NCBI RefSeq assembly: GCF_000238775.2 | Contig: NZ_AFEJ02000001.1 | Coordinates: forward strand, 930,001 to 994,000 | Length of the DNA stretch: 64,000 bases | DNA from: Acaryochloris sp. CCMEE 5410 | GTDB taxonomy: Bacteria > Cyanobacteriota > Cyanobacteriia > Thermosynechococcales > Thermosynechococcaceae | Direction of reading: 5' to 3' | Program-made: the position numbers and the translations under genes | Shown here: piece after piece, positions 16,193-26,403 of the stretch | Layout of the letters: every line of letters starts with the position of its first letter | How positions within the stretch are numbered: the stretch's first letter is position 1 | The notes under the pieces: model-generated | Told to the model about the DNA's origin: nothing | The model's database searches: none | Seen by the model: the letters and a program-made list of their open reading frames with translations, nothing else

Positions 16193-17698
16193 TCTCCTCA
16201 AGGGGGCGTAAGCACAGAATCGGGGATGTATGGCTCAAAGAAAAACGGGTCAAGGACAATAGATCCTGTACCCGAATCAAAAACTTGTCATGAGCCTAAC
16301 ATCGCAATTGCCAACCGTACTAGAGCATCACGAATTTCTAGAACAGGTCGAAGCACTCAAAGAATCACCCAGCCTGAGTCAGATGGTTTATATCGTTCTG
16401 CAAATGGGTTTGTATTTGGCTCGATGGCTTCTGGAGGATGAACTCTCACGGCGAGCAAAACAGTATTTGAATGGCCTAGGTGTAGCACCTGCGGAACCCG
16501 CTTGCACTCGAAGGGATGGGAATCTCGTCAGATGCAGACACTGGTGGGAAATATTTACTGAAAGCGACGGGTGGGTCGTTGTCCAAAAGGGTGTCCAGGT
16601 AGTCTATCAGCTCCTCTGGACCAATCCATTGGGATTACCTCTTACCAGCACAGCAGTAAAGAACTGGTGCGTCTAGGCTGCTTGTTAAGTCTATTTATGC
16701 CCTATGAACTGGCCAGTTGGATGCTGAGTCAGTGGAGTGGTTTATCCGTCAGTTCATCAAGCTTGTGGAATTGGGTGCAAGTCATGGGCAACAAAGCTTA
16801 TCAGGAGCTAGAGGCTCAACTCAAAGCTCAAGCATCAGGTGAACAGGCTCCTAGTGAAGCGATTTCAGAGGTGTTGTCTGCTCTGCCTTTGGCCATTGCT
16901 GCTGACGGTGTGATGGTGCCCTTTCGCCCCACTCCGAAAACCCCCAAGGGAAAAATCCAGTGGCGAGAAGTTAAAGTCGCTATCTTAGCCCGCCTGGGAA
17001 CACGGCTCACCCGAGCTAAAAAGAGTGTCCCCCAACTACTGCGTCGAAGACTGGTAGCAGTATTGGGCGATATCGACCAGTTCATCCCCTTACTGCAACT
17101 CGAAGCCCGCAAACAAGACTTTGAATCGGCCCCAAGCGTCATCTGGTTGAGTGATGGGGGGCGAGGCTTCTGGCGAGTCTACCGCACCTTGTTCTCTCAC
17201 TGTGCTGTGGCAGTTCTCGATTTTTTCATGCAGCAGGCCATCTTGCACGAGCAACAAAAGTGATGTTTGGGGATGTTCGCTCTGCTCAAGCCCAAGCCTG
17301 GTTTCGGCGCTGGCGACACCAATTGCGACATGGGCAACACCTATTAGTATTGCGGTCCTTGACGATGTTGATTCACTCACAATTGTTTACGGGCAAATCT
17401 TTTACGACGTTGCTCCAGGTACAGGCTTATTTCCAGCGCCATCTGCGACACATCCAATATCGCCACTTTGAACAACTACAGATACCGCTGGGGTCAGGAA
17501 TGGTCGAAAGTGCTTGTAAGTGGCTGATTCAACAGCGCTTTAAGGGGGTTGGTATGCGCTGGAGTGAGGATGGTTTCAATCATCTACTCATGCTGCGGCT
17601 TGCCTGGGTCAATCAACGGTTTGACTCCCTATTCCCAGGGGTAACCATTCCGAAGTCTAAGGCATCCCCGATCCATTAGCTACGCCCTCTCCTCAAGG
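16193..17698 (+). mobile_element. ISKra4-like insertion sequence, copy 1
   Basis: The element covers 16204-17687. The ends are GGGCGTA...ATCGGGGATG and its imperfect complement. TCTCCTCAAGG is repeated directly at 16193-16203 and 17688-17698. A nearly identical copy is at 47272-48756. Both inserts leave a duplication of 9-11 bp. Family name is from recognition of the transposase. Confidence 0.85.
16290..17679 (+). pseudogene. ISKra4-family transposase, copy 1, inactivated
   Basis: The reconstructed protein starts MSLTSQLPTVLEHHEFLEQV, has a zinc-ribbon-like CSTCGTRLHSKGW segment, a DDE core (AADGVMVPFRP; VIWLSDGG; ending GSGMVESACKWLIQQR and FKGVGMRWSEDG), and stops at 17679. Compared with copy 2 it lost one A at 16457-16460 and one base at the T-run 17221-17226. 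It also has TGA at 16559-16561 where copy 2 has TGA too. Three defects make it non-functional as read. Confidence 0.8.
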
Positions 17699-23399: not shown

Positions 23400-23481
23400 G
23401 GGTCGGTGCCCGAGTGGTTAATGGGGGCGGACTGTAAATCCGCTGGCTACGCCTACGCTGGTTCAAATCCAGCCCGGCCCA
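23400..23481 (+). tRNA. tRNA-Tyr (GTA)
   Basis: 82 nt. Acceptor GGGTCGG pairs with CCGGCCC, the anticodon arm GGCGGACTGTAAATCCGC places GTA in the loop, the variable arm is long (as in bacterial tRNA-Tyr) and the T-loop is TTCAAAT. CCA is not encoded. Confidence 0.95.
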
Positions 23482-23494
23482 TTGTCTTCGATTT

Positions 23495-23566
23495 GCCCAT
23501 GTGGCTCAGTGGTAGAGCACACCCTTGGTAAGGGTGAGGTCACCGGTTCAATCCCGGTCATGGGCT
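23495..23566 (+). tRNA. tRNA-Thr (GGT)
   Basis: 72 nt. Acceptor GCCCATG pairs with CATGGGC, D-arm GCTCAGTGGTAGAGC, anticodon arm ACCCTTGGTAAGGGT with GGT in the loop, T-arm CCGGTTCAATCCCGG. CCA is not encoded. It follows tRNA-Tyr by 13 bp. Confidence 0.96.
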
Positions 23567-23950: not shown

Positions 23951-24688
23951 ATGAAGCTTAATCAGCTTATCGCTGTCATGCAGTCCGTGAAAAAAAGAGC
24001 TGCAGACGAAAAGACAAAGATCTACAAACAGATTCAAAAACCTGAGCTATTTCAAGGTTTGTCACGGACCTACTCACCGAAGGATGAAGAAGGCCACGTC
24101 TATCCCCCCGAGTCTCAAAAGGTCACATATAAGGCGGGAGACTCGCTAGAAGCCTTTTCAAGGGCCTGCCAAGATTTATTTGACAGTGCTTTAACCCAAG
24201 ATGAAGCCAATACCTCAGCAAGGGCCAACATCACCTTGGATGACGGTACAGTGATTGCGCCTGATGTCCCCGTTACATACTTGATGTTCCTAGACAAACA
24301 GTTGACTGATATCAGGACATTTATCAGCCATATCCCGATCTTGCCCATTGATGAAGACTGGGAATATGACTCTAACCGAGGGTTTTATGTCACTCGCCCT
24401 CGCGAAACCACTAAGACCAAGAAGGTACAAGAATTTGTGATCGCTGCTGAGGCAACCGAACATCACCCAGCCCAAGTCAAAGAGGTCACCAACGATGTAG
24501 TTGAAGGGACTTGGGCTTTGGTTAAGTTCTCTGGTGCTTTACCACAGTCAGAACTAGATGAAATGCGACTTCGACTGGATGCACTTCAAAAAGCTGTTAT
24601 CAAAGCTAGAGAGGAAGCCAATAGCATCGAAATAACCCGAAGAACTATATCGAATAACATTTTTGACTATTTATTTGGGCAGCGTTAG
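23951..24688 (+). CDS. Conserved protein of unknown function, leader of the permuted tRNA-like unit
   Basis: 245 residues, no signal peptide or membrane segment, presumably cytosolic. A helical, basic N-terminus (MKLNQLIAVMQSVKKRAADE) is followed by LSRTYSPKDEEGHVYPPE near residues 37-54, TYLMFLDKQLTDIRTFISHI near 110-129, PIDEDWEYDSNRGFY near 133-147 and a KFSGALPQSELDEMRLRLDA stretch near 193-212, ending in an amphipathic helix. From memory it resembles an uncharacterised family found in actinobacteria and phages (possibly DUF7873); this was not checked. No nuclease, ligase or ATPase motif is evident. The tRNA-like units begin 28 bp after its stop and one terminator closes the set, so cotranscription is likely. 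Confidence 0.75.
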   Translation: MKLNQLIAVMQSVKKRAADEKTKIYKQIQKPELFQGLSRTYSPKDEEGHVYPPESQKVTYKAGDSLEAFSRACQDLFDSALTQDEANTSARANITLDDGTVIAPDVPVTYLMFLDKQLTDIRTFISHIPILPIDEDWEYDSNRGFYVTRPRETTKTKKVQEFVIAAEATEHHPAQVKEVTNDVVEGTWALVKFSGALPQSELDEMRLRLDALQKAVIKAREEANSIEITRRTISNNIFDYLFGQR

Positions 24689-24716
24689 ATTGAACAAGAG
24701 CATAGATTTAGATTCA

Positions 24717-24804
24717 GTATCAAAAAAAGTGATTGGATGGTTCAAATCCTCCCTCTCGCATCCTTAAGCGAGAGTATGCTAATGGGTAAAGCAGCTTTTG
24801 ATAC
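24717..24804 (+). ncRNA. Permuted tRNA-like unit 1 (3' half before 5' half)
   Basis: The upstream half (24725-24760) has an anticodon-stem strand AAAAG, variable region TGATT, T-arm GGATGG-TTCAAAT-CCTCC (one bulged T) and acceptor strand CTCTCGC plus A. Seven bases later (TCCTTAA between), GCGAGAG at 24768-24774 pairs perfectly with that acceptor. Then come TA (positions 8-9), D-arm TGCT-AATGGGTAA-AGCA with GG and A14/A21, G26, and CTTTT, which pairs with AAAAG. Outside the halves GTATCAAAA (24717-24725) matches TTTTGATAC (24796-24804). No clean seven-base anticodon loop can be assigned. CCA is not encoded. Confidence 0.7.
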
Positions 24805-24875
24805 ATTAAGGCTAAAAAATTAAACTCAGTTTATTGCTCTAGTCTTAATCTAAAATCCACTCTTGTGAATCAACC

Positions 24876-24984
24876 AAAGCTCAACAACACATGGGATATA
24901 CGAGTTCAACTCTCGTCCCGCTCCCCAAATCTTGAGCGGGTAGTTTAATGGCAAAACACCCTTGTATTAAGCTGATTGAGCTTT
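24876..24984 (+). ncRNA. Permuted tRNA-like unit 2 (3' half before 5' half, CCA encoded)
   Basis: The upstream half has ATGGG (24891-24895), variable ATAT, perfect T-arm ACGAG-TTCAACT-CTCGT (24900-24916), acceptor strand CCCGCTC, C and an encoded CCA (to 24927). After AATCTT, GAGCGGG (24934-24940) pairs perfectly with CCCGCTC. It is followed by TA, D-arm GTTT-AATGGCA-AAAC and CCCTT, which pairs with ATGGG except for one U-U. Flanks AAAGCTCAA (24876-24884) and TTGAGCTTT (24976-24984) are exact complements. If the loop comes wholly from the downstream half it reads GTATTAA (ATT anticodon), but the splice point is unknown. Confidence 0.75.
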
Positions 24985-25028
24985 AATCGGACATAAACTA
25001 GTCACAAGTTAATGGCTCTAATGCATTG

Positions 25029-25062
25029 AACCCCGGCAGGCGGTATTTGCCGGGGTTTGTCT
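25029..25062 (+). terminator. Intrinsic terminator after the permuted tRNA-like units
   Basis: CCCCGGCA (25031-25038) pairs perfectly with TGCCGGGG (25048-25055), followed by TTTGTCTTT. It ends the unit that starts at 23951. Confidence 0.9.
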
Positions 25063-25217
25063 TTAGCCATACTCACATTCAGCGGTGGCATGATGACATG
25101 CCATCCCAATCTGGGTTAAGAGCATCTTCGAAACGCGTCCACGAATGCATAATCAAGGGTTAACGATAGTTTCGAACTTAGGTGCAATAAACTCCAAAGT
25201 ATGCCCCCAATTTCAGT

Positions 25218-26403
25218 GGCAGCAGCCCAGGGCTGTTTTAAGTTAGCAGCGAAAAAATAATATCGACCCGATTAGCCAGCTTAGTCATCGCGGTTTTGAG
25301 GGATTGATAGTCGTTTAGCCGCAGGATATTAATCCCAATAGTTCTAAGCACTGACCAATTGAGCAGTGCTTGTTCATCTTCGAGTCGATAATCATCTTCG
25401 CCAAAAACAACATCCTTCGGCCAATGCAACCGATTTTCAATGCCCCAATGTTCTCGGACCAGAGATTGCCAATGCTGGGGTGAGGTGGCAGCTGAACTGA
25501 TGTAATAGGCGGTATTGTGATACTCCTTTCCTTTGCGAGTACCCCATCGTTGGACACAAAGTACAGAGCGAATTGCTGTCCATTCTTGTAGGGCTATGCC
25601 GACAGGCTCATAAACCTGTATACACCGATGTTCATCTCGTCCTCTACTTTGGGCGGAGTGGATGTGCTCAGCCATGGGTTTAAGACACTCAAAGTAAGTC
25701 TGGAGGTGGTCGTAAAGTCTTCCCTGGTTGGATTTGACCGCCACGAGATAGTCATTACCCGAGGCCACAATCTTCTCAAGTGTTTTTTTGGGCGTGTAAG
25801 GCATCCATGGTAATCAGCAAGCCATCGAGTTGAAGGGTTTCCAACAGTGCCTGCACGACTTTGATTTCGCTATTATCCTCCTGAGTGAGGGCTTCGAGCT
25901 TGAGGGTGATGCCTGCTTCCACCGCAAATAAACTCACCAACCCTACAAAACGCTGCTTCCCCTTGGCATCTGTCAGCCCCTGACGAATCCGTTTGCCATC
26001 AATGGAGGCTGCATAATTATCGGGAGAGTGAGTCTGGGCTTTCGAGAGCATCCATGCTTCAAATTGGTGGCTCAACGCTTGGAAGTCAAGCCCCTTCATC
26101 ACTCGACGAAAGGTACAGTGAGACGGGACTTCGAGGCTCTCAAGCCCCAATAGCTCACTTAAAGGCTGGCGATAATCGCTCACAAAGGTTTCTAACGGAC
26201 GGTACCCTTGATATCCAGCAAGCATGCCCATCACCATCAATAGCAACAGCAGCCATAACGGATGAATACGGCCATGGGCACTGCGGAAATCCGGGACTTG
26301 CTTCAAAGTATCGATTAGATGGCTCATCGGTCTCTCTACTGTTGGTCAGTAGAACCATCCTATTTTTTCTAGGAGTAACGTAAAACAACCCTGGGCAGCA
26401 GCC
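25218..26403 (-). mobile_element. ISAs1-family insertion sequence (inactivated)
   Basis: Imperfect terminal repeats: GGCAGCAGCCCAGGGCTGTTTT from 25218 (first 20 bases GGCAGCAGCCCAGGGCTGTT) and a related complement ending at 26403. No clear target duplication is seen. It carries one transposase gene on the minus strand with a frameshift. Confidence 0.75.
25238..26327 (-). pseudogene. ISAs1-family transposase with frameshift at an A7 run
   Basis: The N-terminal part (to 25776) reads MSHLIDTLKQVPDFRSAHGR, ...VPSHCTFRRVM... and AASIDGKRIRQG, as in ISAs1/H-repeat transposases. The C-terminal part reads TLEKIVASGNDYLVAVKSNQ, REHWGIENRLHW and DDYRLEDEQALLNWSVLRTI. They are in different frames, joined at seven A residues (T7 at 25783-25789); six would restore one frame (HAQKTLEKIV). 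Otherwise the gene is complete. Confidence 0.85.

Follow-up and report, generated by a model that had tools for sequence, protein, structure and literature searches.

In a 64,000-nucleotide (nt) stretch of the cyanobacterium Acaryochloris sp. CCMEE 5410 (contig NZ_AFEJ02000001.1, positions 930,001 to 994,000; hereafter the window, in whose numbering coordinates are given), a gene for a protein of the family DUF7873 is followed after 8 nt, on the same strand, by the first of two RNA units that each have the body of a circularly permuted tRNA and a long helical arm formed by leader and trailer. This module of a DUF7873 gene and one or two permuted RNAs is also found in distant bacteria and in phages, and its recurrence suggests an RNA-protein machine, little known so far, that is related to Y RNAs. 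Judging from sequence comparisons, we think it probable, if well short of certain, that the two units are noncoding RNAs that mimic tRNA, exist as two-piece molecules with a CCA end, and are bound through their arms by DUF7873.

Two permuted tRNA-like units follow the DUF7873 gene

The gene and the first unit consist of the following elements:

23951..24688, + strand: gene of the presumed protein partner, DUF7873 (PF25283), 245 residues, Pfam E-value 5e-96
24697..24840, + strand: unit 1, permuted tRNA-like RNA adjacent to DUF7873, full extent; outer helix AGAGCA (24697-24702) / TGCTCT (24835-24840)
24717..24721, + strand: GTATC, 5' strand of the arm helix, read from the sequence
24722..24724, + strand: AAA bulge, read from the sequence
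24725..24729, + strand: AAAAG, equivalent of the 3' strand of the anticodon stem, read from the sequence
24736..24752, + strand: T arm, GATGG TTCAAAT CCTCC; 3 of 5 standard pairs in register, a bulged U in the fold
24753..24774, + strand: acceptor stem, CTCTCGC / loop ATCCTTAA (8 nt) / GCGAGAG; 7 of 7 pairs
24775..24793, + strand: positions 8-9 (TA) and D arm, from sequence and fold
24795..24799, + strand: CTTTT, 5' strand of the anticodon stem, read from the sequence
24800..24804, + strand: GATAC, trailer strand of the arm helix, read from the sequence

An earlier note on this DNA had described a GTATC/GATAC helix stacked on AAAAG/CTTTT with a bulged AAA, and these elements lie exactly where it put them. 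Its view of unit 1 as a tRNA in permuted order also holds, the seven acceptor pairs closing an 8-nt loop, with TA and a D arm behind them. The pairing of unit 1 can be read, equally well, as nine continuous pairs (GTATCAAAA/TTTTGATAC); folded in isolation, the 88 nt at 24717-24804 take this nine-pair form at minimum free energy (-24.1 kcal/mol, z -3.0), and one of 200 dinucleotide shuffles folds as well. When more flank was included and the core fixed, an alternative pairing won in the fold of the window sequence alone, and we therefore give comparative evidence more weight than the single-sequence fold. In addition, seven paired acceptor positions beside a loose T arm are expected 1.4 times per random 64-kb strand and hence are not rare, so that a single locus is weak proof and it is the comparison among loci that carries the case.

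Unit 2, which matches covariance model R1 with 86 bits, has these elements:

about 24862..25008, + strand: unit 2, permuted tRNA-like RNA; outer helix CTTGTGA (24862-24868) / TCACAAG (25002-25008); shuffle z -3.2
24876..24884, + strand: leader AAAGCTCAA, forming 9 base pairs with TTGAGCTTT at 24976-24984; also predicted from the alignment
24900..24916, + strand: T arm, ACGAG TTCAACT CTCGT; 5 of 5 pairs
24917..24940, + strand: acceptor stem, CCCGCTC / loop CCCAAATCTT / GAGCGGG; 7 of 7 pairs, with CCA after the discriminator position
24976..24984, + strand: trailer strand TTGAGCTTT, from fold and alignment

The leader-trailer arm covaries in both units

In three close relatives from the Nostocales (loci L026, L044 and L046) the arm of unit 1 reads TTTCA-GTGTC-TAT (or TAG)-AGGAG / CTCCT-GACAC, the window's equivalent being ATTCA-GTATC-AAA-AAAAG / CTTTT-GATAC. 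The flanks are homologous, the helix lengths, the 3-nt bulge and its position are equal, and double, compensatory changes from A-T to G-C are found on both sides of the bulge, in the outer helix and in the anticodon-stem part. Comparison with homologues had been named beforehand as a test that could overturn the helix; in these relatives the complementarity of leader and trailer, the helix and the bulge are all kept. The AGAGCA/TGCTCT helix that closes unit 1 is the homologue of GGAGC/GCTCC in cyanobacterial relatives.

A MAFFT alignment of unit 1 analyzed with RNAalifold did not recover the arm because of insertions and deletions, and we instead compared the leader-trailer energies of matched and permuted pairings, a test that controls for the stickiness of the sequences. 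Across 70 nonredundant loci the matched energy for unit 1 was better by 5.5 kcal/mol (10 standard deviations, p<5e-5), and for unit 2 (69 loci) by 12.1 kcal/mol (21 standard deviations). The window's unit 1 leader pairs best with its own trailer, above all 69 homologous trailers (rank 0.0), and a shuffled trailer matches the true one in 2% of cases. In a plain alignment of 51 unit 2 sequences, RNAalifold predicted the leader-trailer helix unaided, and each of its eight pairs is backed by 14–32 sequences with double compensatory changes.

The arm extends past GTATC/GATAC by way of conserved internal loops, AUCGACC against CUUAAACG in unit 2 and, in the consensus of unit 1, GUUCA against CUAUCGCUC; the GTATC/GATAC helix is one segment of this longer leader-trailer arm. 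As the arm runs on beyond the anticodon stem through these loops, an anticodon loop is impossible, which bears out the earlier proposal that the RNA does not decode. That the covarying helix reaches well past 24717-24804, and that the RNAs come as a pair tied to DUF7873, goes beyond that account.

The module recurs in several bacterial phyla and in phages

DUF7873 was found in 12 of the 386 cyanobacterial genomes surveyed, and nearly all of these loci have one or two permuted units directly after the gene. Named genomes and viral contigs, when scanned, added 160 DUF7873 loci, in Streptomyces, Kitasatospora, Actinomadura, Nocardia, Ktedonobacteria and other Chloroflexi, a deltaproteobacterial metagenome-assembled genome, and phages. 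Defining a strict unit as one with 7/7 acceptor pairs, a 5/5 T stem and T8, located no more than 620 nt 3' of DUF7873, we counted 244 such units on the same strand as the gene in 169 loci and none on the opposite strand; the background, 7 strict units in 3300 kb, amounts to 0.0013 per locus or ~0.2 expected over the 169 loci. Two strict units were present in 94 loci and one in 59, and under looser criteria the median spacing of paired units is 152 nt. The association persists in Vibrio and Rhizobium phages, at 29–32% protein identity. A covariance model of unit 2 gave a strong full-length match adjoining DUF7873 in 17 of 18 genomes (65–142 bits), other full-length matches scoring ~41 bits or less. 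Plain BLAST cannot follow the RNAs because of their divergence: a query with the 311-nt locus against the nucleotide sequences of relatives returned only chance-level matches.

The gene is carried in 73 annotated phage records. In records of Pseudanabaena, Gordonia, Arthrobacter, Rhizobium and Vibrio phages it is annotated as a hypothetical protein and the units lie in stretches with no matching RNA annotation. In Gordonia phage Phendrix and Arthrobacter phage Mimi the module, its RNAs unannotated, is located in or beside large tRNA arrays. At L032/L033 in one genome (G423) the DUF7873 match is in two pieces and there is no strict permuted unit; the gene appears broken, which suggests decay of the module.

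Acceptor-loop signature and maturation

In units linked to DUF7873 the acceptor loop carries the 3'-end signature of tRNA genes. A discriminator C occurs in 0% of viral units (107), 0% of mainly actinobacterial units (109) and ~6% of cyanobacterial units (36), C74 occurs in 90%, 95% and 75%, and NCCA in 39%, 22% and 31%, respectively; units within each group are related, so these percentages describe non-independent samples. For genuine tRNA genes located on these viral contigs the C74 figure is 93%. In contrast, among 25 units at actinobacterial Ro60 loci 28% have a discriminator C and 48% have C74, CCA is present in one, and the loops are mostly of 5 nt. The window itself is a mixed case, with CCA after a C in unit 2 and TCC in unit 1. 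The difference between the two sets of RNAs suggests that those linked to DUF7873 undergo tRNA-like cutting at the acceptor end and act as two pieces while Ro60 Y RNAs stay capped, and it lends indirect support to the two-piece product foreseen in the earlier note. The analogy drawn there with the splicing of known permuted tRNAs is not supported: the genome has RtcB, but a search for tRNA-intron endonuclease (PF01974), for which archaeal controls were positive, found none in it, which makes bulge-helix-bulge (BHB) splicing of the leader-trailer junction unlikely.

The alternative that best survives has the module as described above and its RNAs in one piece, with the acceptor loop retained and the head capped as in YrlA. 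Known YrlA RNAs function as a single molecule (PMC8394870), CCA is not encoded in most of our units, and some cyanobacterial loops are of 4–5 nt. However, the near-invariant C74 and the avoidance of a discriminator C resemble tRNA genes and not Ro60 Y RNAs, and the loops range from 4 to over 30 nt with no preferred tetraloop; we hold one-piece RNAs to be possible but rather doubtful.

The DUF7873 protein

The window protein scores 321.5 bits against the Pfam DUF7873 profile, for which the cutoff is 27, and has no match in NCBIfam or in the defence library of PADLOC. An AlphaFold model (mean predicted local distance difference test score 94.5, predicted template-modelling score 0.72) consists of long helices and a beta hairpin. 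A Foldseek search with it against the PDB and viral models identified nothing at E-values of 0.001 or less, and the top VIA-align match had a Z-score of 7.2 (3kdq, root-mean-square deviation 8.9), in a range that the program's own note calls common; a sequence search of solved structures returned two weak matches only (E-values 0.04–0.05). No paper naming DUF7873 was found in the literature searched, a scope that did not take in the primary Y-RNA literature (Chen 2014, Wang 2018, and the Sim and Wolin reviews), where an earlier mention of DUF7873-linked RNAs is possible.

Proposed model

We propose that in each RNA a permuted tRNA body (T arm, acceptor stem and D arm) has its "anticodon stem" lengthened to form the leader-trailer arm. 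Host tRNA maturation enzymes, namely RNase P together with RNase Z or exonucleases and CCA addition, would excise the acceptor loop and so leave a two-piece RNA with a CCA end, joined by the acceptor stem and the arm. DUF7873 would bind both arms by way of their unit-specific internal loops, and would present the two tRNA-like heads to a tRNA-binding enzyme, either docking them on it so as to recruit it, in the way that YrlA acts in the Ro60-PNPase particle, or letting them compete with tRNA. A broader proposal, to which we give somewhat less than an even chance, is that these are a separate class of ribonucleoprotein, independent of Ro60, in which DUF7873 joins a pair of tRNA mimics dedicated to it at each locus, both in two pieces, ending in CCA and non-decoding; this class would span several bacterial phyla and phages, and its RNAs would be recognized by tRNA enzymes and perhaps aminoacylated. 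The G3:U70 alanine identity pair is rare in the units (3 and 7 of about 73).

Several observations weigh against the proposed model. In the window, the discriminator position of unit 2 is C even though CCA is present, and unit 1, with T at position 74 (ATCC after the acceptor stem) and a weak T stem, may be a degenerate copy. Strict units are absent from 16 of the 169 loci, and one genome (G272) has only partial matches to the unit 2 model. The signature at the 3' end could be a relic of tRNA ancestry and not a mark of active processing. The modelled fold of DUF7873 has no clear structural relative, indicates no enzyme class and offers no functional clue, and the loci have no conserved neighbour genes, beyond shadow reading frames over the module and clade-local clusters, that would indicate a target.

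The RNAs could instead be decoys or sponges carried on phages and islands, which would occupy tRNA-cutting nucleases and be stabilized by DUF7873. The presence of the gene in so many phage records, sometimes inside tRNA arrays, and of two different tRNA mimics per locus would fit such a role. We regard it as unlikely, as the module is common in Streptomyces chromosomes, the protein has no defence-library match, and on viral contigs tRNA density near the module is barely above that further out (0.48 vs. 0.44 per kb), with no notable enrichment.

The module provides a first molecular context for DUF7873, an unstudied family, and would explain the stretches lacking RNA annotation beside hypothetical protein genes in several phage records. 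It suggests that Ro60 is not the only protein with Y-RNA-like tRNA mimics, and adds candidates for naturally two-piece tRNA-like RNAs besides tmRNA. Since culturable Streptomyces commonly carry the module and sequenced phages have it too, its function and processing are directly testable.

Surroundings in the window

A possible transcript end was read from the sequence downstream of unit 2:

25029..25064, + strand: AACCCCGGCA / loop of 9 / TGCCGGGGTT, followed by TGTCTTT

A terminator scan of the locus found none, the loop at 25029..25064 exceeding the length that the scan allows. The DUF7873 gene is preceded, at a distance of ~385 nt, by genes for tRNA-Tyr and tRNA-Thr (23400-23566). On the other side, close behind the module, 25238-26327 holds a transposase gene (DDE_Tnp_1-associated domain) split between two overlapping reading frames, which probably marks a disrupted insertion sequence. 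Positions 17575 and 48644 share an identical stretch, at least 110 nt long, that probably stems from copies of an insertion sequence.

Relation to YrlA, Ro60 and other permuted RNAs

Both window units were missed by ARAGORN and by Rfam at its cutoffs. With relaxed Rfam thresholds the best match was YrlA (RF02553), with 31.3 bits (E-value 5.7e-5) for unit 2 and no match for unit 1; Streptomyces units scored 24–31 bits against it, and none of these reaches the gathering cutoff of 69 bits. This cutoff is narrow, since the Y RNAs linked to Ro60 in these phyla do not reach it either (30–43 bits). The window's genome (8.09 Mb) has a TROVE/Ro60 gene, 1.76 Mb from DUF7873 and with a permuted unit of its own. 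At this gene's locus (L210, G000:C1:2716500-2721500) one or two Y-RNA-like permuted units lie upstream, near 1624 and 1785-1908, which Rfam scores as tRNA (35–43 bits) and which are a likely origin of false tRNA calls. Among the 386 cyanobacterial genomes DUF7873 and TROVE occur together in five, where ~1.2 would be expected, which may reflect related roles or shared mobility.

These links, that is the YrlA match, the TROVE gene in the genome and the co-occurrence, could be taken to mean that the units are ordinary Ro60 Y RNAs, capped, in one piece and serving the genome's Ro60, with the adjacency to DUF7873 incidental. We find this quite improbable: TROVE is absent from 7 of the 12 cyanobacterial DUF7873 genomes, the scores are far under the cutoff, Ro60 loci have their own Y RNAs with another arm motif (of the GGTTACTTC type) and short loops, and the full-length matches to the unit 2 model adjoin DUF7873, not Ro60. 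A further reading takes the units for decoding tRNAs in permuted form whose leader-trailer junction is spliced, as happens in red and green algae and some archaea; we can all but set it aside. The 3' half does precede the 5' half and the bulged junction helix does resemble a BHB motif (PMC3978253), but the genome lacks the endonuclease and the covarying arm, running far past the anticodon stem, leaves a cloverleaf anticodon loop unattainable.

In YrlA, the terminal stem holds the Ro60 orthologue and the tRNA-like domain binds PNPase (PMC8394870). The DUF7873-linked RNAs share with it the terminal leader-trailer stem, T arm, loop-closed acceptor stem, UA and D arm in identical permuted order (PMC8394870), and frequently two RNAs per locus. 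They differ in that their neighbour is DUF7873 while the partner of YrlA is TROVE (Ro60/Rsr), in lying 3' of the gene where the RNAs of the Ro60 loci looked at lie 5', in the motifs of the arm (such as AUCGACC / CUUAAACG in unit 2), and in acceptor loops that keep the tRNA 3'-end signature. They have the Y-RNA plan, but score below the YrlA cutoff and adjoin a gene other than Ro60. Two-piece tmRNA (permuted ssrA) likewise comes from a permuted bacterial gene, and it consists of two base-paired RNAs, as the DUF7873-linked RNAs may do (PMC3978253 for tmRNA); the window RNAs, however, are of ~145 nt and form paired units with DUF7873, and neither ARAGORN nor Rfam detected a tmRNA, with its tRNA-like and tag-coding domains, at the locus. 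The circularly permuted tRNA genes of algae and archaea share the order of the halves and the bulged junction helix (PMC3978253), but the window units are non-decoding, have no anticodon loop and belong to a genome without the splicing endonuclease. Of the RNAs described so far, the bacterial Y RNA YrlA comes closest, closer than the permuted tRNAs of algae and archaea.
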